A DNA stretch of 64,000 bases, from contig JABUFA010000015.1 in the NCBI GenBank assembly GCA_013314755.1, positions 1-64,000 on the forward strand, in the 5' to 3' direction. A program made the position numbers and the translations under genes. A model generated the notes under the pieces. It was given only the letters and a program-made list of their open reading frames with translations. It searched no databases and was not told the DNA's origin. Positions 1 to 38,281 of this stretch are shown here, one piece after another (within the stretch, counting starts at the first letter, position 1; every line of letters begins with the position of its first letter). This stretch comes from Chthonomonadia bacterium (GTDB lineage: Bacteria > Armatimonadota > HRBIN16).

Positions 1-127
1 GTTGTCGCTTTTACCCCCCCCGCACAGCCAATTGGGGAGCGGAGAGGACTGGTGCAGCGATTTGCACCGTGAGGCTCAGGATGCATACCGTTGCGAGTGT
101 ACGCACAAACGGAAAGCGTCTCAGCAT
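1..127 (-). pseudogene. Exported protein, N-terminal part, interrupted at a G8 run (window edge)
   Basis: An ATG at 127-125 follows a strong AAAGGAGGG ribosome site. It opens a typical signal peptide: MLRRFPFVRT, a hydrophobic stretch, then an AAPVLSA-like cleavage region. The frame reaches a run of eight G (minus strand; C at 14-21) and stops at once (TAA, 13-11) after 38 codons. Either neighbouring frame stays open to the window edge, so a one-base slip in the run would restore reading. This may be a frameshifted gene, a phase-variable gene or a sequence error. The function of the mature protein cannot be seen here. Confidence 0.55.
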
Positions 128-217
128 TTGAAAGCACCCTCCTTTGTGTTTTATTGAGAAAGTGTCTTGGCTCTCCCAAACCCACTGCGGGAGCTGTGCT
201 GTTGCAGGTTTGATTTA

Positions 218-25636: not shown

Positions 25637-26302
25637 TCAGTGTAGCGACACAGTTGACCGTTCCCATATCAAGAAGCCTTCCAGGTCGTAAGCCTCTGCA
25701 ATAAGGAACTGAGCGTGCCTGACAAGATACTCCAGCTCCTCTACCGTTCCCGGACGCCTCTTTACCGACCAGGATAGGACCGCTTGGTCGGGAATCCGAG
25801 ACAGTATCCCCACGGTGGATGGGTAAGCCATCTCTACCATGGAGATACTGCGGTCGATAATTTCCGGGTCGGTGTCCGTTTCAAGCAAATACGTATACAC
25901 CTCTTTGTCGCCGACGATTACAAACCGTATCTCCTCCTCTGGGGGCAACCAATCGTGAAGCCAGTTCCCGAACAGAGCGATAGATTGTGGCACGTTGCTC
26001 AGGTACTGGCGCACGAACTCGGTGAGGTGCTCCTGCGTGGAGTATATCGGCACTATTATCCCTTTGTCCGTCCTGACTATAGGCGCGTCATCGGGAACTG
26101 GTACTACCCCACCCCACTTAAAGTTATTTACCTGCTCGGCGCTCAGCCCGGGCGGCAGGTAAGTATAGACCTGTCCCCGTCTAAGGTCAAGATGGTTCAG
26201 CAGCAATTCCGCCAGCGTCTTATGGAGTTCCTCCCCTTCCTCCAGAAAAGAACGGATATAATCTACTGCCTCCTCACCGAGGTCGTATCGAACAACGTCC
26301 AT
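25637..26302 (-). CDS. Hypothetical protein in the Rhs locus (candidate immunity protein)
   Basis: 221 aa, acidic and soluble, with no signal or TM segment. I start at ATG 26302 because AGGAGG lies six bases upstream; a second ATG at 26308 touches that site. Notable stretches are LPPGLSAEQVNNFKWGG, FGNWLHDWLPPEEEIRFVIV and VEMAYPSTVGILSRIP. I do not recognise the family. Being the last gene of an Rhs-tip series on the same strand, and small, acidic and intracellular, it could be an immunity protein. That rests on position only. Confidence 0.6.
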   Translation of the reverse strand: MDVVRYDLGEEAVDYIRSFLEEGEELHKTLAELLLNHLDLRRGQVYTYLPPGLSAEQVNNFKWGGVVPVPDDAPIVRTDKGIIVPIYSTQEHLTEFVRQYLSNVPQSIALFGNWLHDWLPPEEEIRFVIVGDKEVYTYLLETDTDPEIIDRSISMVEMAYPSTVGILSRIPDQAVLSWSVKRRPGTVEELEYLVRHAQFLIAEAYDLEGFLIWERSTVSLH

Positions 26303-26455
26303 TGTCATCCTCCTTCGGAACAACCTCACTTGTCCTGACGCCTTTCGCCTCGTTGCCTGAGTAATCGCCATCTGAGGTAGACATCAGATGTAACAGTGAA
26401 TGCGCTTTGCTGTTTGTGTGTTATCCTTCGGTTCTCCTCCCGTCGTTCTACATCC

Positions 26456-27106
26456 TTAGCACTCTGTGTCCGTGATGGTTTCATATTCGATAGATTGACC
26501 AAGCCGGTCTAGTACTCGCCGAAATGACTCGCGCGCGGCAACTGTTTTCTCGGTCTGTAAAGCCTGTTCCACCGCATGATAGATTACCCCTGTATCTGCG
26601 ATGTTTTCCTGAAGAATTTCCAGCAAGGTGTTTGCGACGGCGCAACGAATACGGTAAGAACGATGCGACAGTAATGAAAGGATGTAGTCAAGGTAACCTC
26701 TGTCTCCGAAGCGATACAGGGCATAGCCCATGTTCAGTTTAGGAAAAGGGTGAGTCTCCAGCCTGAATGCTTCCTCCACGATTCGCTGAATATGAAGAGT
26801 TCTGTAGCGGATGACGTTCATGTCGCCAATGGCAGCCGCTGCCCAGCCGCGCACTAACCACGACCGGTCGGCTAAGGCTGCCACGAGAAACGGCAGGACC
26901 GAAGGTTTTTCCCAATAGCCAAGCTGCTCTGCTGCAGAACAGCGCACCACATCCTCTGGGTCAAACAACAGGCTACTTTTCAGGGCTCTCAGCACGCGCG
27001 GATGACGATACTGCGCCAATTCCTCTATCGCATCGCATCTCTCGGTGGAATCAGGAGAGGACAGACGATTTAACAGGTAGACCATGTTCTTACGCTTTTC
27101 AGGCAT
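26456..27106 (-). CDS. HEAT-repeat protein (candidate immunity to the adjacent Rhs tip)
   Basis: 216 aa. Tandem helical HEAT/armadillo units run through most of the protein: CDAIEELAQYRHPRVLRAL, RCSAAEQLGYWEKPSVLPFL, RGWAAAAIGDMN and RCAVANTLLEIL. I take ATG 27106 (MPEKRKNMVYLLNRL) as the start, since the longer frame runs back into the Rhs gene. It begins 25 bases after the stop of the Rhs tip at 27132. HEAT proteins bind other proteins, and one placed directly after a toxin tip is a plausible immunity protein. Inference from context. Confidence 0.75.
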   Translation of the reverse strand: MPEKRKNMVYLLNRLSSPDSTERCDAIEELAQYRHPRVLRALKSSLLFDPEDVVRCSAAEQLGYWEKPSVLPFLVAALADRSWLVRGWAAAAIGDMNVIRYRTLHIQRIVEEAFRLETHPFPKLNMGYALYRFGDRGYLDYILSLLSHRSYRIRCAVANTLLEILQENIADTGVIYHAVEQALQTEKTVAARESFRRVLDRLGQSIEYETITDTEC

Positions 27107-27131
27107 AACCCCATCTTCCCCCCCTCTGAAG

Positions 27132-27779
27132 TTACGCCACCATATCAAGCGTACGCAACTCATCTTCGATTCTACGCTGGCAGTATCTTCCGTCATCTAT
27201 AAAGAGAACCTCTGCTCTTTTCTTTTTGTTACGCTGCTGCCTAGCTTTCTCCTCTCGCCTGTACCTGTCTCGTTCGTGCGGTGGCAACGACCTATCACGC
27301 GCCCGTTGGCGAACGACGTCATCAGGAAGATCTTGTAGTCCCGTATCGCGCAATCTCTCCTTGCCCTTTTTACCTCTTGCCTCCAGAATGACAAGTCCGA
27401 TAACAATTGCAGCACCGATAACATCTCCTATTGGGAGAGGGCCGTCAATCGCCGCTGCTCCTGCAGCAGCCCCCAACGCCCCTGCTACAGGCGTAGTTCC
27501 ACCCGGATCGACCGAATTGACAGGCTCATGCTCGCAATACAGATACGGGTGTTCACTCAACACCGCATCCCGGCTAATGAACCTCCCAACCTGCGGGTCA
27601 TAGTACCGAGCGCCCACATGCAGTAAACCCGCATCGCCATCGTCCCGATAGCCCCACGCACCCGCACAACGATACGGGTTAGCACTGCTACCCCACTGCG
27701 CCACCGGATTGCCAAAACCATCGCTTGTGAAGGTGCTCGTCACCGTTAGGAGTGGTGCCTTTTGCAGCGCGGGAAACAC
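27132..27779 (-). CDS. Orphan Rhs core fragment with C-terminal tip (type B)
   Basis: Up to 215 aa. The end of an Rhs core, GYRDDGDAGLLHVGARYY followed by DPQVGRFISRD and PYLYCEHEPVNSVDPGG, leads to a variable tip. The tip is a hydrophobic alanine/glycine/isoleucine segment, then a strongly basic tail (RQRARDRSLPPHERDRYRR...RNKKKR). The core part (27525-27741) is nearly identical to 29609-29825, and identity ends abruptly at GTGCTCGTCACC. There is no Rhs gene 5' of it and no ribosome site, so it is a displaced tip rather than a complete toxin gene. I do not name the toxin family. Confidence 0.8.
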   Translation of the reverse strand: MFPALQKAPLLTVTSTFTSDGFGNPVAQWGSSANPYRCAGAWGYRDDGDAGLLHVGARYYDPQVGRFISRDAVLSEHPYLYCEHEPVNSVDPGGTTPVAGALGAAAGAAAIDGPLPIGDVIGAAIVIGLVILEARGKKGKERLRDTGLQDLPDDVVRQRARDRSLPPHERDRYRREEKARQQRNKKKRAEVLFIDDGRYCQRRIEDELRTLDMVA

Positions 27780-27791
27780 GGAGGCGGTCGT

Positions 27792-29234
27792 CTACATGAC
27801 AACCGTGATCTGGTTTACCCGAGCCTCCACCCCATCGAAAACTACGGATTCCCCCAGCAAAGCCTGTCCTTCACGCTTGACTTGCTCCGCCTGCTCCACA
27901 TTGCCGGTAGCAGACGCCAGCTTTTCGGTCAGACTAAAAAGATTTCTCAACCTATCCTTAACCACCGCTTCGGAAGGGTAATAGCACCAGTCAGGCGATG
28001 GCAGTGTTCCCCATGCCTTAGCAACGAAACGACAAGCTAGCCGAAGTCGCCGATGGGCATAATGTAGCCGAGCCACCTCGATCAATGCCTCGATATACTT
28101 TTGAGACCGGCGCAGCAGGCGATGAAACGTTCGCAATGCCTCTTTGTAGTTACGTCTGAACATCAGTTCGCCCCACCTGAACAGGGGTAACTCTTCCGAT
28201 GGCGCTAGTGCGTGCCATTGGGCGATGTAGTGCATCTCTGCTTCGACATCTTGTGCTTTAGCAGCACTCTCCGCAGCATAAGCTAGCATCCGACGTTCTT
28301 GCCACGTTTTCCAGCCATCCAGCAAGATGTCAACATCCGCTGGAAGATCGCTCAACAGGGTAAACGCTTGTTCGTAGTTGCCGTTGTGCAACTGATGCGT
28401 AATGACTGCACATTGCTGAGCCAGTTCCAACAAACGCTTTACTGGAGTGTGGTCTACTACCGAAAGTAGCGAAGTGGTCTCAAGATGATACTGACCCGTA
28501 GGCGAAAACGAATCGCGGAGCCAGCGCAGGTAACCATCACTATCACCCAGTATAGCAATCCCCGCTTCTATCACCTGACGAGCCTGGTTTACGCTGCCCG
28601 TCAGGGCTAAAGCAGCAAAGGTCACCTCGTATAGTTCTTCGAGCGTCACACGAATGATAGTTTCGCTGGGGTAATATATCCATTCTGGCTTCCGTAAAAC
28701 CTGCCAGCTTCGTTGAGCAAACCTCATCATGTCTCTTACCGCTGCTCTTTGGTCGGCAGACCGCTTCTGTCCGAGCGAGTTCACTCGATGCACGGCACAC
28801 CGTGCCATCCACGTCCAGCCCTCAATGGAACGAGGGCATCGCCTCAGCAATTCCCATAGTTCCTGCTCCGCAGAGCGATAATTACCAGCCATAATCATGT
28901 CCTCGGCCAGGAGCAAACGGGGCAACAAAGCAGAAGGCTCATGGATGACCTGCTCCTTTCGCCACCTCAGGGCATTTTCCCAATCGTCCACCTCCTCATA
29001 TCGCATTGCCAGTTCATCCAGCGCGTCAGTAATAATTTCGCTTGCATAAGGCGCAAAGCCCTCTCCACCGTTCGCCAAAACGGAGTGCGCTGTCGACAAA
29101 GCAAGTTCCCCTTCTCCTCGGCTAAGGTGTTTTGATGCCCTTTCCAGAAGACAGGCGTTCTCTAGGCATCTCCGAGCATCTTCAAAGGATACTGCTTTTA
29201 GCCATTCAGCCTCGCCCATGGTATTTCTTTTCAA
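27792..29234 (-). CDS. TPR-like helical repeat protein (candidate immunity protein)
   Basis: 480 aa, almost entirely alpha-helical with tetratricopeptide-like pairs: YEEVDDWENALRWRKEQVI, GNYRSAEQELWELLRRCP, RRNYKEALRTFHRLLRRS. The two halves look like a duplication: EWIYYPSETIIRVTLEELYE in the first half matches DWCYYPSEAVVKDRLRNLFS in the second. The TTG start (29234) has GAGAGG four bases upstream; the next in-frame ATG is 29219. It begins 16 bases after the stop of the Rhs tip at 29251, so I propose it is that tip's immunity protein. No signal peptide. Confidence 0.7.
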   Translation of the reverse strand: MKRNTMGEAEWLKAVSFEDARRCLENACLLERASKHLSRGEGELALSTAHSVLANGGEGFAPYASEIITDALDELAMRYEEVDDWENALRWRKEQVIHEPSALLPRLLLAEDMIMAGNYRSAEQELWELLRRCPRSIEGWTWMARCAVHRVNSLGQKRSADQRAAVRDMMRFAQRSWQVLRKPEWIYYPSETIIRVTLEELYEVTFAALALTGSVNQARQVIEAGIAILGDSDGYLRWLRDSFSPTGQYHLETTSLLSVVDHTPVKRLLELAQQCAVITHQLHNGNYEQAFTLLSDLPADVDILLDGWKTWQERRMLAYAAESAAKAQDVEAEMHYIAQWHALAPSEELPLFRWGELMFRRNYKEALRTFHRLLRRSQKYIEALIEVARLHYAHRRLRLACRFVAKAWGTLPSPDWCYYPSEAVVKDRLRNLFSLTEKLASATGNVEQAEQVKREGQALLGESVVFDGVEARVNQITVVM

Positions 29235-29250
29235 TCATCCTCTCCACAGC

Positions 29251-29945
29251 TTATGGGCATCGAGGGTTATATGGGAAACCTCCTCCTTCCCAGAACTGCG
29301 ACTTATCGTCTGGGATGTTATATGGTTGTGGATATTTGGGTCTAGGACGCTTCCCCTTCCTTCCTCCTTCTTCCCATTCCTCTTGTTCTTGCTTCGCTTT
29401 CTCCCGAGCTCGGCGCTTCTCCCTTCCGTGTATCTTCTCACGCGGCCTGTCCGACCAGTCGTCGATATGGTCGGCGACGTATTTCACCGCGATACTGACG
29501 CCGACCACGATGCCAGCGCCGATAATTAATTCTCGCACGCCAGGAATTAGTAGCCCTGGCAGCGCGATCGCTGCGGGATTGTCTCCACTCGGATCCACCC
29601 GCATGATCGGCTCATGCTCGCAATACAGATACGGGTGTTCGCTCAATACCGCATCCCGGCTAATGAACCTGCCTACCTGCGGGTCATAGTACCGAGCGCC
29701 CACATGCAGTAAACCCGCATCGCCATCGTCCCGATAGCCCCACGCACCTGCATAACGATACGGGTTAGCACTGCTACCCCACTGCGCCACCGGATTGCCA
29801 AAACCATCGCTTGTGAAGGTGCTCGTCACCGCCTGAACGGGGTCTACCGTCGCCCGCGTCGTGCCCTGACCGTCACTCAGCACCACCTCACCGTTGCGGG
29901 CTATCAAACTGTTGCCGTAACGGTAGATCAGGGTGACCGCTTCGC
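29251..29945 (-). CDS. Orphan Rhs core fragment with C-terminal tip (type B, second copy)
   Basis: About 218 aa from the first possible start (TTG 29907); Rhs-like sequence in the same frame (AVTLIYRYGNSLIARNGEVVLSDGQG) reaches back to near 29945, where a stop cuts it off. It is thus a 5'-truncated piece of a larger Rhs gene. The core GYRDDGDAGLLHVGARYYDP is followed by FISRD and then a tip with one hydrophobic helix (LIIGAGIVVGVSIAVKYV). The tail is charged and proline-rich, ending FWEGGGFPYNPRCP. The core repeats at 27525-27741. The tip differs completely from that copy. Confidence 0.8.
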
Positions 29946-30058
29946 ACTGTTGTCGCGATTATAATCCAATCTCGCGAGAAATGCAAGGGCTTTGGTGATA
30001 AAAATAAGCCAATCCGCGTCGCCGCGTGGAGGGCGAGGCGGGCGCCGAGCCGTTGTCG

Positions 30059-30136
30059 ACCTAACCCCCAACCGCTTCCCTGCGAGGGAAGGGGAGATTC
30101 TCCTCTCCCCGCGTCGGGGAGAGGCTGGGAGAGGGG
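30059..30136. repeat. Dispersed palindromic repeat inserted at a gene end
   Basis: GACCTAACCCCCA, TTCCCTGCGAGGGAA and CTCCTCTCCCC/GGGGAGAGG repeat the block at 10259-10329 almost base for base. The stop codon and last codons of the 323-aa protein lie inside it. The gap 29946-30058 has only a decayed piece of the GGAGGGCGAGGC type (about 30029-30052). Confidence 0.75.
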
Positions 30137-31032
30137 TTTTTGTGTCCTGGCTGTAGTATTTCCGATATCTCCACGCGCCGAATGGCTAATCGTTTGGCGA
30201 GAGTGGGGTCAGATACCACCCGTCCTTTGGCATCAAAAGTAAATGAAGCACGCCGTCCATCGTTGTAGGAGATGGTACATTTTATTCCCGTTTTGGGAAT
30301 GCTTTCCGGCAGAAACGCCGCTGCAAATCCAGACCTGCGGTAGGACACATCGTTGCGGAACGAATAGGCTACTGGTGAAGGAGTGAGCGTGTAACCCTTG
30401 ACCTCCGCATCAGCAGACCAATCCTGTCTCATGCCGAACCAGACCAGTCGTTCCATGCTGACAGCCTGCTCTACTCTTTTGCCTTGTGGCTGGAACTGGG
30501 GACCATGCTTATTCCAGTGGTTGCTATACGTTAGCGGAGGATACCCCAGAGCAGGGTCGAGCCGGTCGGCAACAGCGAGAACTTGTTCCGAGTGGGTGCC
30601 ATCTGTTAAGTTGACAAGCAGTTTGTTTTCGCGAGTTGTCTCTGTCGCCTTCACACCGACAATCATCCGGAAAGCTTCATCGGGTATCTGTGGGTCTTCG
30701 ATTGGTATCCAATGGTAGTATACGAAGACAACCCTGTGTGGTGTGAGGTCGGGAAGCGGCATCGTGGACGAGAGGGAGCGATTCAAGTATATCCAAGCGT
30801 AGAACCCTCTGGAATCGTTATCCGAATGCTTATGGGGTGGAACTACCGTACGGAGCACTGCATTGCTCAAGGGGCGCAACCGGGTCGCCCCCAATTTGAC
30901 GCTGATGGAGGGAGAATCGTCTGCTCGCTGCACTCGCAGCAAACGAAACACGTTCGCGAGGCGCGTCGTGAAGAAACCCGTGATGACAACACCCAGTAAC
31001 ACGATAGCGACCAACAGCACGCGCTTGACCAT
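30061..31032 (-). CDS. Membrane-anchored hypothetical protein with a repeat-derived C-terminus
   Basis: 323 aa. ATG 31032 has AGGAGG upstream. A single N-terminal TM segment (VLLVAIVLLGVVITGFF) is followed by a large beta-rich extracytoplasmic part. That part contains RVVFVYYHWIPIEDP and VSMERLVWFGMRQDW. I do not recognise the family. The last 26 or so residues (SPSLSPTRGEEN..) are encoded by the dispersed repeat also found at 10261-10329, so the original stop has been overrun by a repeat insertion. It lies between two Rhs fragments on the same strand. An immunity or accessory role is possible. Confidence 0.65.
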   Translation of the reverse strand: MVKRVLLVAIVLLGVVITGFFTTRLANVFRLLRVQRADDSPSISVKLGATRLRPLSNAVLRTVVPPHKHSDNDSRGFYAWIYLNRSLSSTMPLPDLTPHRVVFVYYHWIPIEDPQIPDEAFRMIVGVKATETTRENKLLVNLTDGTHSEQVLAVADRLDPALGYPPLTYSNHWNKHGPQFQPQGKRVEQAVSMERLVWFGMRQDWSADAEVKGYTLTPSPVAYSFRNDVSYRRSGFAAAFLPESIPKTGIKCTISYNDGRRASFTFDAKGRVVSDPTLAKRLAIRRVEISEILQPGHKNPSPSLSPTRGEENLPFPRREAVGG

Positions 31033-31048
31033 TGCTGCCTCCTGTTGG

Positions 31049-31200
31049 ACACCGGTTCAGCGACAGGGGTTGATACAGGTTGCCAAGGTACTTGTCTGCC
31101 GTTATCCACCGACCCACCGCCGGCTCGTAATACCGCGCGCCTACATGCATTATACCCGCATCGCCGTCGTCGCGGTAGCCCCAGTCTCCGGCAAAGGTGT
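31049..31200 (-). pseudogene. Rhs core remnant without a tip (type A)
   Basis: About 150 bases nearly identical to 35245-35396 in the large Rhs gene, encoding FAGDWGYRDDGDAGIMHVG and the following ARYYEPAVGRWITADKYLG up to SLNR. Identity stops on both sides at sharp edges, and there is no start, tip or ribosome site. It is a recombination scar lying just upstream of the 323-aa membrane protein gene. Confidence 0.8.
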
Positions 31201-31287
31201 GAGCAGCCAGAGCGTGTACGCTACCTGCCACACAGACAGTGTACCCCTGCCGAGCCAGTTACTTCCGTCGCAATTCTTTGCCGCAGA

Positions 31288-31740
31288 TTAGGACTGATCC
31301 GAACCAATCTCAACAGTTATCGCGAAACCTTTCACCCGGATTGAGAAGCGTAAGGGAATATCTGTCAGCACCGTGATGACCTGCGAAGACGGGTCAAAAA
31401 CGAGTATGTTAAAAGGATACAGACCAACGTGTTCGGTATCAACGAGGGAGTAGTCAGACACATTCTCAATACGCAGTATGGCAGGGACGAGCCGGACTTG
31501 CGTTCGCCGTGCTGGTCGTAAAAAGCGGAACCAGCGTGCGACAGTTGCGCGAAGCCCCCGGTGACCTGCATGCAAATCTTCCGCTGGTACTAACACTGTC
31601 TGTTCGTAGCTGAACGGTATGAGCAACACACCAGCTTCGGCATCGAAAGAGATGCGCTCGACATCAAAAAAGCAATCATGGATGAGGTTGTGGATTGCAT
31701 CAAGGAACTCCGGCGAGTCCACTTTGAGTACCAGACCCAT
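31288..31740 (-). CDS. Small acidic protein after an Rhs tip (candidate immunity protein)
   Basis: 150 aa. ATG 31740 has GAGGTGA upstream; a GTG at 31749 overlaps that site. The protein is soluble, beta-rich and without a signal: VERISFDAEAGVLLIPF, VRLVPAILRIENV, FNILVFDPSSQVITV. It starts 88 bases downstream of the tip at 31828-32193 on the same strand. Immunity genes usually sit directly behind the tip they neutralise, so I infer that role. Family not recognised. Confidence 0.6.
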   Translation of the reverse strand: MGLVLKVDSPEFLDAIHNLIHDCFFDVERISFDAEAGVLLIPFSYEQTVLVPAEDLHAGHRGLRATVARWFRFLRPARRTQVRLVPAILRIENVSDYSLVDTEHVGLYPFNILVFDPSSQVITVLTDIPLRFSIRVKGFAITVEIGSDQS

Positions 31741-31827
31741 CACCTTCACCTCGCTTCCCCGATGACCTCGCAGCGGGCTGAAAGCACTGCCTCGTTCAAA
31801 GATCTGTTATCAATGATGTGTAATGGA

Positions 31828-32340
31828 CTATTTATTATACCATCGCCACCACTCAGGAAGCGGTATTCTCCATATTTTGTGGCTCTTTTTTATGCCCATC
31901 TTATACACGACAACCTGAAGGTGCGGCAGGAGTTTATCGCCAAAGCTATGGTGAGGAGGATGGAACCTCGCTTTGATTGCTATCATACCGATAGTCGCCG
32001 TACCTCGAAATATCGCAACAGCACCACCCGCTAAACCGCCAATAAGACCTCCACCGACGTAATACCACCATGGGTCGTTAATCCGTCCGTCATCGAAATA
32101 GTCTTTCGCCCCCTCGAGCAACAAACCACCTGCGGCACCGATGGCAACGGCTAAGAGTAATGGAAACCTGCCACTCGGATCCACCCCGTTCACGGGGTCG
32201 TCTTCGCAATACAGATAACCGGTTCAACGACAGGATCTGGTACAGGTTGCCACAGTAATTATCCGCAGTGATCCCACGACCTAACGCCAGCTCGTCATGG
32301 TGCACCCCTATATGCAGTATACCCACATCGCCTGTAACCG
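31828..32340 (-). pseudogene. Orphan Rhs fragment with tip, core frameshifted (type A)
   Basis: The core part (about 32200-32340) is a decayed copy of the large Rhs gene: GILHIGVHHDELALGRGITADNY replaces the usual IMHVGARYYEPAVGRWITADKY. One extra A near 32216 shifts the frame before YLYCEDDPVNGVDPSGR. From 32193 the tip frame is open for 121 codons: a glycine-rich hydrophobic part, then FHPPHHSFGDKLLPHLQVVV, a lysine-rich stretch and IPLPEWWRW. Paired histidines and lysines suggest a nuclease-like tip, but that is a guess. Without an upstream donor it should not be secreted. Confidence 0.75.
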
Positions 32341-32348
32341 GCTCATGT

Positions 32349-33293
32349 CTATGTTCCTAAGGTGTAGCCCACCAGATACTGCGTATCTGCGTACACGATC
32401 TCCAGAAGCGCGGCAAGTAAAGCCTCCATGACAAAAGGTAACACCGCCCATCCAAGGCGGCGATATGCCTGCCACAACCAAACCGACACAACCAGGGGAG
32501 CCACACTTGTTGCCCACAAATACAGGGACGAATTGAATGCAAACGACTGCCAGAGATAGATTGTGTAAAGAAAAGTGAGTGACAGCATGGGAAGCGCGGG
32601 CAACGATTCGACAAGAAGAACACGCCCGGAAGCTAAAAGCATTCGTTCAATCAACGAGCAACAGGTGATAACGAAAAAGTAAGCTCTCGCGAAGGCGCCG
32701 AGCGTCAGCGACAGGAATACCTGTGCCATGAACAGATAGCTTGCCTGCTGCACTGAGACTGTGATCTCTTCTATGCCGGCTTGTCTGGATGCCTGCCGGA
32801 CCGCGTCGTACACAAGGGCTATCAGCAACAGCACGCCCAGAAAAGCGAGCGGACGGATAGCGGGTAAAGCATCACCTGTATTGAACGAAATACGTTTGCA
32901 CAGCCACCGGGACAAGCATAGCAGAACCACCCATCCGGCTGCCTGAAGTACAAGTCCGTATATCCCTTTCACCTCTGTAACAACAGGCGATGGTACTCCT
33001 GCTACGGTCCACTGCAGGATGATGGATAGCAACAGATTCATGAAAGTTGCCACAGTCACTGCACCCAGTATTGCCACCGCTGAGAAGATCTGAGGAGCCT
33101 GCCGGACTGCAATGGACGCGCCGATGAGAAGTACCAGAATGAGCAACAAGCCTGCGCAAACGTGCTGGGGAACTCCTGACCCCCACGCTGCGCGTAAAGC
33201 CTCGGCATATCGTTTCTGATGCCATAAAACTGCGGACAGTCTCCACCCGTATGTTTTCTTCTCCAGCTTTGTGGTGGCGTTCTGCTGACGAAC
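32349..33293 (-). pseudogene. C-terminal membrane half of a gene split by TAG
   Basis: From just after the TAG at 33296-33294 the frame is open without an ATG, through ATTKLEKKTYGWRLSAVLWH and QKRYAEALRAAWGSGV, then seven or so TM helices (first start-like codon TTG 33149) to VGYTLGT. It continues the frame of the small gene at 33294-33569. The joined product (about 405 aa) has the layout of its neighbour at 33715-34872: signal peptide, helical domain, multi-TM part. Both share YW/LW-HQ-RY-type helix ends and WATSVAP/WALSVAP near the C-terminus. They are paralogues in the Rhs locus. Confidence 0.7.
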
Positions 33294-33569
33294 CTAGTAA
33301 TCCTTCTCTGCGATCTGCCAGAGTCCCAGCTCCTTAGCCAGCCATGCCCTCCAGGTTACCAGTTCGGGATTTTTATCGCCCCGCGCAATGGCTCTGTCTA
33401 TCTCGCGATAGCGTTCCTGCATCACAGCCTTGTTGGGGTTTCCCCACCGGTCGAAAGCCTGCGTCCACCATGATGGGTTGCCCAATGCGCTGTGCGGGTA
33501 GCAAAGGGCACATGTCATAGCCATCGCGGTTGCCAGCAGAACGCGCCGCATCGTTGCCCACATTGGCAT
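33294..33569 (-). pseudogene. N-terminal secreted half of the same split gene
   Basis: 91 codons from ATG 33569, which has GGAGG five bases upstream. A signal peptide (MRRVLLATAMAMTCALCYPHSALG) precedes a short helical domain, WWTQAFDRWGNPNKAVMQER and WRAWLAKELGLWQIAEKDY, then TAG. If translated alone it would give a secreted peptide of about 65 residues. Comparison with the paralogue at 33715-34872 places the stop in the middle of the helical domain, so it is most simply a nonsense mutation. A longer upstream frame runs into a dispersed repeat (33638-33660) and is not used. Confidence 0.65.
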
Positions 33570-33637
33570 GTGCACCTCCCCCGTTGCATTCGGCTGCAGG
33601 AGCCTCCATCTGGATCCGCTATCTGCCCGCAGGTGAG

Positions 33638-33660
33638 CCTCTCCCCGCGTCGGGGAGAGG
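33638..33660. repeat. Dispersed 23-base palindrome
   Basis: CCTCTCCCC-GCGTC-GGGGAGAGG, identical to 349-371 and 38604-38626. It sits between the two paralogous membrane protein genes, in the only spacer between them. Confidence 0.75.
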
Positions 33661-33714
33661 GGTCTTCCTACCCCCTGCGGGGAGGACGGGCGGGGCTTCC
33701 GCGTGCAAAGTTTG

Positions 33715-34872
33715 CTATACCCAGTATGCATACTCCAGCAGGGATCTCACCGCCTGAAGAAGACTGTACCACCAGAAGGGAACGGCGGCAACCCACCAGC
33801 GCGGCTTCAATACGTAAAGCAGAACAGCAGGTGCGACGCTGAGTGCCCAGAAATGTGCCGTTGTCCACAGCAAATCAGGAAGCGGCTTCCACGCGAAGGA
33901 CGAAATAGCGGGAAGAGCCAGAACACATATCGCTCCCACGATACCGAAAGACCGCCTCGCTACCCCGTAATACAACATGACAAAATATACGGCTAACGCG
34001 ACGTCTTTCAGAACCAGTTCTGCAAGGATCTTCAAAAAAGCGGGCTGGTTGATAGACACAGCAAGAGATGAGAGCGAGTAGGCGTCTGAGCGAAGAGACA
34101 GCAGAGGAAGCGCCTGCAGCAGCCCCTGCAAGATTAACCCTGCCGCCGCGAAACCAAGCAGTCTCGACCTGTCAGACACCGCTTCGCTATGGGTTGCGGT
34201 GAACAACAGGCGTCGCATCAACCACAGGCTACCCACCAAAAGGGTTCCGTAAAGAAGCACGGAATAAACTACCTCAGCCAATCGCTCCGCCCGAAGCGAG
34301 ATGGGGAAGGGCGCTCCGCTGACCAGAATGCCAGCAATCATCTCATAAGGAGCTATCAGCAGGTTGAAAATGAACGCAACAGCCGTCGCCCAGAAGATAC
34401 CCCTGTTACCGACCCGCCTGGAAAGCCACCAAGCGAAAGCGAGTAGAACCAGAGGCAAGAGCATACGACGGAGACTGGTGAGCAGATAGCGACTGAGCTC
34501 CGGCGACCGCAGAAACGCCGAATACCTGCCCTGACGCCAGTAAGTGTGCAAGAGCCAGCGACTGCACCATTCCTGCTTTTGCTGACCGCACGCGAGCAGT
34601 GACTGCTGGATATGGCTCCATTCCCCACGCTCAGCAAGGAGGCGCACCTGCACGTATGTAAGCCACTGGTCCTGAGGGTACTTCGCTTGCAGGCTATGCA
34701 GCAGGGGAATGAGGCTCTCGGCGGCGTCGGGTTTGAGACGCAGTTGCTGGTCATACACCTCTCTCCACGTCTGCACCAGCCTGTGGTAATCGGCATCGCG
34801 AGGCGCAGGCTGACCGGCGACAGACGCTGCCATGACCATCAAAGCGACAGGGATTAGTGCGTTTCGGTACAT
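33715..34872 (-). CDS. Exported helical domain plus multi-TM protein (candidate Rhs immunity protein)
   Basis: 385 aa. ATG 34872 follows AGGTGAACAAC. A signal peptide ending near VAGQPA leads to a TPR-like helical domain (about 25-135: LIPLLHSLQAKYPQDQWL, LLAERGEWSHIQQSLLA). Eight or so TM helices follow. It is the intact paralogue of the gene split at 33294. It begins about 110 bases after the stop of the large Rhs gene on the same strand. A membrane protein directly behind a toxin gene may protect against a membrane-acting tip. That is inference, and no family is recognised. Confidence 0.65.
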   Translation of the reverse strand: MYRNALIPVALMVMAASVAGQPAPRDADYHRLVQTWREVYDQQLRLKPDAAESLIPLLHSLQAKYPQDQWLTYVQVRLLAERGEWSHIQQSLLACGQQKQEWCSRWLLHTYWRQGRYSAFLRSPELSRYLLTSLRRMLLPLVLLAFAWWLSRRVGNRGIFWATAVAFIFNLLIAPYEMIAGILVSGAPFPISLRAERLAEVVYSVLLYGTLLVGSLWLMRRLLFTATHSEAVSDRSRLLGFAAAGLILQGLLQALPLLSLRSDAYSLSSLAVSINQPAFLKILAELVLKDVALAVYFVMLYYGVARRSFGIVGAICVLALPAISSFAWKPLPDLLWTTAHFWALSVAPAVLLYVLKPRWWVAAVPFWWYSLLQAVRSLLEYAYWV

Positions 34873-34983
34873 GTTGTTCACCTGATAGGCAAAACTCTGC
34901 CTGTGCCCCTAAATGTGTCTCCGTCAGTATGGACACAACAGCCCTGTTATAAGTTGCTATCTGGAGCCGTATTTCCGACCCCC

Positions 34984-37950
34984 TCACTCAATCCACGGCA
35001 AAGACCTCCACAATACAGGAACCGTCATCTTAAAAGACGGTCGCGGAGGATATGGTGATGGATGTGGGAAACCCGGATCCCACGGACCGTCCTTGCCTGG
35101 TTGATAGGGGTCGGGTGGCGGTGACGGCTCGTAGTCTTGGCATCCCCCAAGCAGTAACGCCACCGCAACAATACCCAAAATAGGTAGCACTGGTATCCTG
35201 CCACTCGGATCCACCCCGTTCACGGGGTCATCTTCGCAATAGAGATACCGGTTCAGCGACAGGGGCTGATACAGGTTGCCAAGGTACTTGTCTGCCGTTA
35301 TCCACCGACCCACCGCCGGCTCGTAATACCGCGCGCCTACATGCATTATATCCGCATCGCCGTCGTCGCGGTAGCCCCAGTCTCCGGCAAAGGTGTAAGG
35401 GGTACGGAAACCGACGTCCAGACGCTCCCCAAAGGCAGTGAATATCGCTAGATAGGTGACACTGCCACCCCACTCGTCGGTGTGCACTCGCGCGGATCCC
35501 AACCGGTCACTGCCAGACCACCACTGGTCGCCCCACGCGATGTTTACCGCGTTCACCATCCCACCTGCCCACGTATACTTCCAATTCATCATCAGGTGGT
35601 TGGTGGAACTCGGATTGTTCCACTGCTCACGAATCAGCGAACTACCTGCGAAGCGGAAGTTGGCTGACCGGAAAGTGCCAGAGTCGTTAACTGTGCGCAA
35701 CACACGGCGCCCTAAGCCGTCGTAAGCATACAGGTGAGTGATTATCCCGATATTACCACCAGGACGTCGGATAGTAGTCAGCCGGTCCTCATAGTCGTAA
35801 GTGAACCAGCGAGTAACGCCATCCTGTGTGCGCTCAATCATGTTGCCGTTAGCGTCCCACCGATAGGTGACACTACCTGCCGTTAACAGCCGGTTGTCAT
35901 CATCATAGGTGTAGTTCGTGACCACCCCGTCCTGCACTTGCTGGATGCGGTTACCTACCGCGTCGTAACTCCACTGCAAATCCACCGGTGCATACCCCGT
36001 GCGCTGCTCCCGAACCAGCCGATTGAGAAAGTCATAACGATACCGTATCGTGCTCTGAGTGTTCCACAGCTGCTCATGGACCTGCTTGCATCGCCCGTTT
36101 TCCTGGTAACTGTAAGTGAACGAGGCTAATACCCCACCTGTGGAGTCTTTGTGCGTTATCTGATGCAGACGACCCTGCAAGTAGGTATACTCCCGGCGTG
36201 CCCCATTACCCAAATCCACTGCCACCACGCGACCGTCGGCGTCATATGTCCATGTGGTGGTCTTGCCCAGCTCGCTCAACGTGTGTAACAGGTTGCGCGA
36301 CGTGTAGGTAAACTGGATGGTACGGACCACCTCACCCGACAGGCTTTCACTCATTGCCGACAGCAGACCGTTGGGATAGTATTCATACTCTACCCGCCAG
36401 CCAGTGCCCTTCTGTTCACTCTGTAGCCAACCCTGTGCTGTGTGTTGCCACACCGTTTCGCCTGTTTCATCTACCATTCGCACGAGCCGGCTCTGCGCAT
36501 CGTAGTGATATTGCACGGTGGTGTTGTTGGGATACCTCCTGGTGCGCAGGCGTCCCCACTCGTCGTAGGTGTATTCCACGCGCTGGTTTTTGGCATCAAT
36601 GCGCGCGTTGGGTTCGGTAAACCCGAAAGTGCTCTGCGCATCGGCATACTCCCACTGGGTCTGGTAGCCCAGTGGCGTGGTCAGGCTAATAAGGTTGCCG
36701 TAGGCATCGTAACTGTAATCGGTGATGGTGGTCAGCTGTCCGTAGGCGTCGTATCCATACTGCGTCCGTAGGAAATCAGACTCACTGGTGTACTGCTTAA
36801 CTTCAACAAGGTTGCCGTTGCTATCGTAACTGTATTCAGTCTTGTGCCGAGCAGACTCGGAGATGCCCCATGCGTCAGTGACCGGCGGCTCGAGTACTTC
36901 CGTGAGGCGGTTGGCGTTGTCATAACTGAAGTCAAAGCGGTTGTTTGCTGGGTCTGTGACGCCCACGATATTGCCGTTCGCATCGTAGTCTATCTGCCAC
37001 TGCGTGCCTGTTGGCGTGGTAATGCTACTGGGCGCCCAGGCGTAATCGGCATCGTTGTAGGCTAAATAAGTAACGTGGTTCTCGCCGTCCTTCACCTGCA
37101 CCAGCCTGCCCCAAACGTCGGTGGCGTTGGAGTAGAAGGTTGTAGATACCCCACGCGCATCGGTGACGCGCAGACCGCGCAGTCCACCCTCTTGCACCAG
37201 AGTATACTGGAATCGCTGAGAGATGCCAGGCAACTGCTCCCACTCCAAAGAATCGGGGTCGCCGTTTGTTTCTGGGTCACCGTAGCCATACTCCCATGTC
37301 TGCCCGGCGCGATCGGTGTAGCTCACAATATTGTTGTATGGAGAGTAACCGAACTGCACAAAGTAGTTTTGAACTCCTTCGCCGGTTGTAACAAGCGGAT
37401 AGTACACTTTTTCCAGACGTCCCACTGTGTCGTATTCCAGCGTCCAGGTACGGCTCCAATCACCCACCACAAAGCGTACCTCGCGCAGTTTTCCACCAGA
37501 ATACTGCAGTTGCAGTTGACGTCCTGACGGGTCACTTATCTGCGAGAGCACACCGTTTGCGTCGTAGGTGAGGGTGATGGCGTTGCCGTTAGTATCAACA
37601 ATGCGACTCAAGCGGTATCGTCCCTGCGTGCTCGTCGGTTCAAACTCCAGCCGTATCTGCGATTTGAGCGTGAGCACATAGCCACTGCCATTGGCATGGA
37701 GCCGGTCGCGATAGCCATCGCGTGGTATCCACTGCCCGTTCTGCAGATCAAACTTCTGGATGGTATGGTTACCCCAGATGACCGCTGCCTGACTACCGCC
37801 CACTACCTGCTGATAGACATCCAGGTGAGTATCGTAGGTGTGCGTCCACTTGGCGGCAATGAGGGGGTTGGAGTAGACCCCTTTGCTGTTGTGGTGCAGG
37901 CTAAAGCTCACCGGCATCCCACCCCGTGCCTGCCAGCCCACAAGGGGCAC
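34984..37950 (-). CDS. Rhs repeat (YD-repeat) protein with short C-terminal tip
   Basis: About 988 aa from the first start after an upstream stop. It is built of YD repeats such as YDANGNIVGVTDPANNRFDF and YDAVGNRIQQVQDG, which form the hollow shell of Rhs/Tc-type proteins. The core ends GARYYEPAVGRWITADKYLG and NRYLYCEDDPVNGVDPSGR, after which the tip is only about 70 residues. The tip has a hydrophobic stretch ending LLLGGCQDYE, then proline-rich sequence. No PAAR or VgrG gene is near. It is the only long Rhs gene here, and its type A core is the parent type of the fragments at 31.1 and 32.2 kb. The 5' part is damaged (see 37951-38281). Confidence 0.88.
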   Translation of the reverse strand: MPLVGWQARGGMPVSFSLHHNSKGVYSNPLIAAKWTHTYDTHLDVYQQVVGGSQAAVIWGNHTIQKFDLQNGQWIPRDGYRDRLHANGSGYVLTLKSQIRLEFEPTSTQGRYRLSRIVDTNGNAITLTYDANGVLSQISDPSGRQLQLQYSGGKLREVRFVVGDWSRTWTLEYDTVGRLEKVYYPLVTTGEGVQNYFVQFGYSPYNNIVSYTDRAGQTWEYGYGDPETNGDPDSLEWEQLPGISQRFQYTLVQEGGLRGLRVTDARGVSTTFYSNATDVWGRLVQVKDGENHVTYLAYNDADYAWAPSSITTPTGTQWQIDYDANGNIVGVTDPANNRFDFSYDNANRLTEVLEPPVTDAWGISESARHKTEYSYDSNGNLVEVKQYTSESDFLRTQYGYDAYGQLTTITDYSYDAYGNLISLTTPLGYQTQWEYADAQSTFGFTEPNARIDAKNQRVEYTYDEWGRLRTRRYPNNTTVQYHYDAQSRLVRMVDETGETVWQHTAQGWLQSEQKGTGWRVEYEYYPNGLLSAMSESLSGEVVRTIQFTYTSRNLLHTLSELGKTTTWTYDADGRVVAVDLGNGARREYTYLQGRLHQITHKDSTGGVLASFTYSYQENGRCKQVHEQLWNTQSTIRYRYDFLNRLVREQRTGYAPVDLQWSYDAVGNRIQQVQDGVVTNYTYDDDNRLLTAGSVTYRWDANGNMIERTQDGVTRWFTYDYEDRLTTIRRPGGNIGIITHLYAYDGLGRRVLRTVNDSGTFRSANFRFAGSSLIREQWNNPSSTNHLMMNWKYTWAGGMVNAVNIAWGDQWWSGSDRLGSARVHTDEWGGSVTYLAIFTAFGERLDVGFRTPYTFAGDWGYRDDGDADIMHVGARYYEPAVGRWITADKYLGNLYQPLSLNRYLYCEDDPVNGVDPSGRIPVLPILGIVAVALLLGGCQDYEPSPPPDPYQPGKDGPWDPGFPHPSPYPPRPSFKMTVPVLWRSLPWIE

Positions 37951-38281
37951 ATTGGTCTGTTTTGCTTAGGAGAGCACGTTGATACCTGCGACCTGTGCCT
38001 GCCAGGGATGTCCAGAGCCTGAACCCGCTGCCGTACCATCCTCGATGGGGCTGATAGAGCCTGGCGGCTGATAGGCGAATCCGCCAGCCAGAAGGGTATT
38101 CACGGAGAGGTGCCATTGAGAGGCGTATGCAGATGCGGTATTGGCAAGGAAGAGAGTGGCAGAGGCAAGCGCAGCGGTAAATACGCTAAGGGATGTCACC
38201 CCCCGCGTTAGTAAGCAAGAATACAACAGAAAGCATCACAGCGAGCGGTTTGGTCACAAAGCGTTTGCGAACACGGTTCAT
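37951..38281 (-). pseudogene. Damaged 5' end of the large Rhs gene (leader, frameshift, stop)
   Basis: ATG 38281 has GGAGG eight bases upstream and starts a signal peptide (MNRVRKRFVTKPLAVMLSVV..). At a G6 run (C at 38199-38204) this frame soon ends at TAG (38188-38186). The neighbouring frame instead continues with a second hydrophobic stretch (LASATLFLANTASAYAS), then QWHLSVNTLLAGGFAYQPPG to a TAA at 37968-37966. It resumes in that same frame as AKQTNVPLVGWQARGGMPVS, the usual start of an Rhs shell. Two lesions therefore separate the export signal from the Rhs body. The intact gene would encode about 1,090 aa. Confidence 0.65.

Follow-up and report, generated by a model that had tools for sequence, protein, structure and literature searches.

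The 64,000-nucleotide (nt) stretch analysed here (the window) covers positions 1 to 64,000 of contig JABUFA010000015.1 from a Chthonomonadia bacterium of the phylum Armatimonadota. An array made up of an Rhs gene, four core or tip remnants and seven partner-type genes runs on its minus strand from 38.3 to 25.6 kb. We conclude that it is very probably an Rhs-type polymorphic-toxin locus with an array of displaced C-terminal tips. The tips would be toxins and the partner genes would encode their neutralisers, as judged from the behaviour of tips and partners and from known Rhs biology. One tip, T7, and the 153-amino-acid (aa) gene behind it are candidates for a new pair of toxin and immunity protein, with no match in the curated families that were searched. 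Nine congeners of the host draft genome (3.95 Mb, 98.7% complete) and about 280 further genomes from the phylum served for comparison. Genomes, sequence stretches and contigs are labelled G, L and C, each with a number.

Anatomy of the array

The initial annotation described one long Rhs gene, at least four core or tip fragments and seven interleaved genes. The long open reading frame (ORF; 34987-37965, minus strand) indeed contains 13 RHS repeats (E 2.3e-51) and an Rhs_assc_core domain, but the gene is not intact. Translation is expected to start at 38281, where AAAGGAGG precedes an ATG and the protein begins with MNRVRKRFVTKPLA. The signal-peptide-like stretch and the Rhs body are out of frame with this ATG leader across a run of six G (G6, 38204-38199). 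In addition, a TAA at 37966-37968 cuts the leader and signal-peptide part from the Rhs body; the congener G005 has a sense codon at the same place. The full-length Rhs copy is probably silent in the assembled genome.

Further Rhs core remnants do lie at four places (32.2, 31.05-31.2, 29.6 and 27.5 kb), but the 31.1-kb fragment is core only and the core at 32.2 kb loses its frame before the tip is reached. Two core types occur, type A at 35.2, 31.1 and 32.2 kb and type B at 29.6 and 27.5 kb. The type A cores at 35.2 and 31.1 kb share 97% identity over 156 nt, a value that falls to 63% for the degraded copy at 32.2 kb, and the two type B cores are 94% identical over 248 nt. These identities within the array are far above chance. 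Four tips are present, each after a DPSG or DPGG motif: the current tip of the full-length Rhs (71 aa), T7 (113 aa), a tip of 110 aa and T5 (121 aa). All seven interleaved genes were found, the supposed 150-aa gene encoding 153 aa and the 221-aa one being a 244-aa ORF, but the second helical and transmembrane (TM) gene is broken. It is weakly similar to the 388-aa gene (26%, E 1e-4). The features of the array are as follows.

38199..38281, minus strand: Rhs leader; ATG behind AAAGGAGG, peptide MNRVRKRFVTKPLAVMLSVVFLLTN, ending in the G6 run 38204-38199, with the rest of Rhs in another frame
37966..38198, minus strand: signal-peptide-like segment and N-terminal Rhs part; closed by the in-frame TAA 37966-37968, continuous with the body in G005
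34987..37965, minus strand: Rhs body; 993-codon open frame with YD repeats and Rhs_assc_core, ending in DPSG and the tip
34987..35199, minus strand: tip now carried by the full-length Rhs; a hydrophobic segment and a Pro-rich tail in 71 aa, weakly related tips in L074 and L077
33715..34881, minus strand: membrane protein of 388 aa next to the current tip and its candidate partner (immunity)
32349..33731, minus strand: broken relative of the 388-aa gene, in two frames (33294-33731 and 32349-33149)
32171..32335, minus strand: degraded, frame-disrupted type A Rhs core remnant ahead of the T7 tip
31831..32169, minus strand: displaced tip T7, candidate new toxin family; 113 aa, two hydrophobic helices and a small beta domain with conserved His/Gln/Arg
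31288..31749, minus strand: partner of T7 (153 aa), candidate for a new family of immunity proteins; the two occur together at 13 loci of the phylum
31048..31203, minus strand: type A core remnant that lacks a tip and continues into the 323-aa gene; identity to the core of the full-length Rhs 97%
30061..31032, minus strand: membrane-anchored protein of 323 aa, candidate immunity gene that no longer has its tip; in G001 (L073) a 60% homologue follows a decayed tip
29584..29831, minus strand: type B Rhs core remnant; ORF open from 29958
29254..29583, minus strand: displaced tip of the TPR cassette, 110 aa
27792..29234, minus strand: TPR protein of 480 aa, candidate partner; in G003 a 67-69% homologue follows the same tip in decayed form
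27498..27745, minus strand: type B Rhs core remnant, from core comparison
27135..27497, minus strand: displaced tip T5, 121 aa, C-terminal half basic
26456..27196, minus strand: HEAT-repeat protein and candidate partner of T5, with which it is also paired in G005, KatS3mg016 and G211 (cut)
25637..26371, minus strand: solitary candidate immunity gene, 244 aa (about 221 from an internal ATG); weakly like the gene behind a G003 tip

A perfect TATAAT with a weak -35 element (TTGCAT) and a 17-nt spacer lies at 29958-29986, just ahead of the orphan type B fragment and below the threshold of the promoter scan.

Pairing and turnover of tips and partners

We extracted 116 core ends with tips, of many types, from 41 sequence stretches of the genus; the tips thus do have variable counterparts. 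Homologous downstream genes, defined as homologues within 300 nt of the tip, accompany 14 of 45 related tip pairs (near-identical pairs being left out of this class) vs 4 of 4032 unrelated pairs. None of 5000 shuffles reached 14 pairs in a permutation test with n = 92 tips, the statistics of which ignore species kinship. One pair (HEAT) was added manually because the HEAT ORF overlaps the tip end.

Single cassettes recur in the same way. T5 is 61% identical to a G005 tip, and the gene behind each encodes a HEAT protein (54%). This pair is found again in KatS3mg016, a named Fimbriimonadales record whose Rhs cores are 84-89% DNA-identical to those of a genome of the same phylum, and in G211, where it is cut by the locus end. 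The G003 homologue of the TPR gene (67-69%) stands behind a tip that starts alike and ends after nine residues, and the G001 homologue of the 323-aa gene (60%) behind a tip shrunk to one residue. Other tips of the current-tip type are followed by ~410-aa TPR and TM genes. The 244-aa protein shares 22% identity with a protein encoded after a different type of tip in G003 (L076); in G009 a 64% homologue of the latter again follows a tip of that type. Every type of tip is accompanied by a downstream gene of its own, with the weakest cases being the current tip and the 244-aa gene. This recurrence of pairs across species supports the earlier suggestion that putative toxin-immunity cassettes were kept after tip replacement.

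Variations on these arrangements were seen elsewhere. In G002 (L140:295-1995) a T7 tip that contains a stop, together with its partner, comes immediately after the HEAT gene of the T5 cassette, so that two window cassettes adjoin in the other order. The tips of L074, L077 and L092 have a hydrophobic stretch and thrombospondin-3-like Asp repeats with no known toxin domain, each followed by one of the ~410-aa TPR and TM genes. Arrays are also formed by a third lineage of Rhs cores (YAYVGNGVV), the tips of which are rich in cysteine (L085-L087, L091, L094, L095).

T7 and its partner were followed across the phylum. A two-sequence T7 profile gave matches in ten of 291 genomes. The alignment of nine members contains invariant H70, H74, H83, Q85, G92, R101, P103 and W107, and each of the nine is followed by a gene of one partner family. 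The pair occurs in G009, G080, G042, G167, G112, G211, G203, G209, G002 and others, and spans at least five families. In G167, T7 sits on a full Rhs and the start of the partner adjoins the Rhs stop. Searching with the partner family located 17 places, 13 of which have a T7 tip or a recognisable remnant just upstream (the tip in G218 was judged by eye from HAAHHTF...HVQ...RIPYWW). Among the other four, one lies directly behind a tipless Rhs core, and three (two of them weak) have neither. The downstream genes are therefore not always tip-free.

The profile and structure searches proposed with the initial annotation left both families without a match in Pfam, NCBIfam or PDB sequences. T7 is predicted to form two hydrophobic helices and a three-stranded beta domain, with a predicted local distance difference test score (pLDDT) of 75 for the model and about 80-89 in the domain. 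The partner is predicted to be mainly beta (pLDDT 84, predicted template modelling score 0.74). Fold searches with the two models gave no PDB match at E <= 0.001. Of the new pairs thought possible at the outset, T7 and its partner at 31.3-32.2 kb do appear new, but HEAT-type immunity has already been described (PMC3482391). T7 may most plausibly be an enzyme working via its histidines and arginine, perhaps a nuclease, an assignment that we put somewhat below an even chance. The pair is conserved across families and small enough for direct testing.

Comparison of alleles at two other sites of the genus is consistent with cassette turnover. At site 1, the flanks of G005:C2 and G003:C3 are alike over 4.2 kb (81%) and 3.0 kb (90%). 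The interior holds a full-length Rhs with several tips in G005, and other tips with no Rhs body in G003. At site 2, G005:C5 and G003:C4 have flanks alike over 3.9 kb (89%) and 2.2 kb (94%), enclosing two tips in G003 and five in G005, T5 with its HEAT gene among them; three cassettes are additional in G005. Homology inside both sites is mainly confined to short core segments. Sister species with the same flanks thus carry different sets of tip and gene, in line with the proposal that a tip and its downstream gene move as units. These differences match the prediction of exchange via the conserved core.

From these data we infer core recombination as the mechanism and protection as the role of the retained genes. 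A Sec-exported Rhs would carry one tip after its DPSG site, encoded beside the immunity gene of that tip. Recombination in the short conserved core would import a new tip together with its immunity gene, and the old tip and partner would be pushed downstream with a scrap of core. Older genes would then persist as orphan cassettes, in which tips decay and immunity genes are often kept. The kept genes may protect against siblings still armed with the old tip. Export is probably Sec-dependent, because the leader is Sec-like and the sheath gene of the type VI secretion system (T6SS; VipB, PF05943), the only T6SS marker tested, was not found in the genome (98.7% complete; E. coli control positive).

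Poly-G tracts in Rhs leaders

Several unrelated Rhs lineages, or the genes at the head of their operons, have tracts of 5-18 G among their first ~40 codons, all with lengths read from draft assemblies. The window-type Rhs leader is present in ten copies in six genomes, and nine of them have a G tract (6, 6, 6, 7, 5, 10, 9, 18, 7). None of these nine type A/B leaders is in the Rhs frame, the offset being one of two different values. MLRRFP-type leaders have G8-G13 and are all out of frame. Two type D leaders with G9 are also out of frame, and another Rhs-like gene, with G12, is in frame. In total, the Rhs toxin genes with leader tracts are in frame in 1 of 19 assembled copies. The gene heading the type C Rhs operon is in frame with G9 and out of frame with G8 and G10 (L086, L094, L095, L201, L219, L240). 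Leader poly-G sites are found at 38199-38281 of the window and in L071, L076, L093, L096, L100, L147, L148, L152-L154, L156, L202, L220 and L239. The contig itself begins inside another Rhs leader (window 1-150, minus strand; MLRRFPFVRT..., G8, out of frame), a second Rhs lineage thus abutting the contig end.

In the window's genome, three of the nine tracts of at least nine G are at Rhs leaders or operon heads (chance <1e-7, a post hoc estimate). Other poly-G tracts are at the starts of other secreted proteins, at the ends of regulator-like ORFs or in unclassified places. The tracts of L075:594, L213, L214 and L232 lie where a regulator-like ORF (...NVAQLVHVAWVLG...) ends, with genes for secreted proteins following, and such regulator-end tracts are possibly promoter or coupling switches.

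Poly-G contingency tracts in the leader may control Rhs toxin export in this genus, a hypothesis that we place just short of an even chance. Phase variation is offered as a proposal, because the tract lengths come from draft assemblies and the window's own tract (6 G) is short for rapid slippage. A fixed programmed frameshift as the cause of the split leader is disfavoured, because the frame offset differs between orthologous leaders. The toxin genes are off in nearly all assemblies; if the proposal is true, most cells would therefore be silent and slippage would arm a minority. Poly-G leaders would then provide a testable idea of how costly contact weapons stay silent in most cells. A search of mainly open-access literature returned no account of Rhs leaders controlled by poly-G tracts. 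In the parts of the literature open to this search, Armatimonadota and Rhs appear together in incidental mentions only, and Armatimonadota and phase variation not at all.

Toxin reading, rival explanations and known systems

Rhs tips in this genus can be toxins, because another Rhs lineage (D) carries tips that match Tox-REase-7 (E 6.5e-22), an LHH nuclease and a Tle3-like lipase. The candidate partners are repeat proteins (TPR, ankyrin, HEAT) or membrane proteins. Searches of the tips and most partners against Pfam, NCBIfam and PDB sequences gave nothing notable except TPR, HEAT and ankyrin, and tblastn in plasmid records gave no matches. A suspected likeness of the G003 and G009 tips (L076_6423, L079_3061) to Ntox37 was tested and not supported.

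Some observations weigh against a toxin-immunity array. No homologous neighbour within 300 nt accompanies 31 of the 45 related tip pairs; causes seen among these, not for each, are a common N-terminal hydrophobic part only, decay and contig ends. No toxin domain is recognisable in the 71 aa of the current tip, and the 388-aa protein next to it is only weakly similar to its relatives. Eight congeners have a conserved cutA/amidase side at the site of the present array, with no Rhs core on the array side (2.5-11 kb examined), so that allele exchange is seen at other sites of the genus only. Several pieces are broken, namely the 31.1-kb core without tip, the 32.2-kb core and the second TM gene, as they would be if the remnants were ordinary decayed Rhs duplications and the interleaved genes unrelated passengers. 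However, in other species and families too, tips of a given type are followed by the same partners, and no shuffle reproduced this pairing. The conservation of tip and partner pairs largely refutes the passenger explanation, which we regard as highly improbable.

The tips might instead be variable surface or adhesion modules, with the downstream genes being chaperones or anchors for each variant. A strongly hydrophobic stretch in 18 of 36 type A/B tips would agree with this, as would the thrombospondin-3-like Asp repeats of some tips (weak), the lack of a recognised catalytic domain in tips of this lineage and the phase-variable tracts, which are typical of surface proteins. Displacement with kept partners is, however, a signature of toxin-immunity selection, T7 has invariant His/Gln/Arg in a compact domain, and the D-lineage tips of the same genus are known toxins; we consider adhesion modules quite unlikely. 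It is also unlikely that the orphan cassettes are stand-alone intracellular toxin-antitoxin modules and not leftovers. Salmonella Rhs elements have been reported as type II toxin-antitoxin modules (PMC7043789), and two orphan tips lie within open ORFs of >200 aa. Yet promoter-like sites in the array region are not clearly above shuffles (12 found vs 8.3 expected, standard deviation 2.8), and several tips have decayed with their partners kept.

The array can be compared with the orphan rhs-CT/rhsI modules of Poole et al. 2011 (PMC3150448), where the rhs C-terminal displacement of Jackson et al. 2009 is cited. Both have a full-length Rhs with a DPxG-bounded variable tip and a downstream partner gene, displaced tip and partner pairs with short core remnants, and different tips between conserved flanks. 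Unlike those arrays, the present one is from Armatimonadota, with no T6SS marker found, two core types mixed and other tip and partner families. HEAT and ankyrin proteins directly behind Rhs tips resemble the described immunity classes Imm-HEAT and Imm-Ank (Zhang et al. 2012, PMC3482391). Imm-HEAT is listed there with Tox-REase-7, whereas here the HEAT protein stands behind T5, which matches no Pfam or NCBIfam family. The leader tracts are like the poly-G contingency genes of Neisseria or Campylobacter (e.g. PMC3786947, PMC6321876), in that a G tract at the coding start sets the frame by its allele-dependent length. In contrast to those genes, the tracts here are on Rhs toxin leaders of unrelated Armatimonadota lineages, and length was compared between alleles and not within a population.

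At the level of sequence, the locus has every feature of orphan rhs-CT/rhsI arrays that was tested. YD repeats and a core ending in DPxG are present, though the gene is broken by the G6 frame shift and the TAA; the downstream tip copies have a core scrap only, and different tips lie between conserved flanks at two other sites of the genus. An orphan array of Rhs C-terminal tips and immunity genes is known as a kind; the tip and partner families and the phylum would be new. Two clear comparisons of alleles accompany this extension of the tip-displacement model to a phylum that has received little study.

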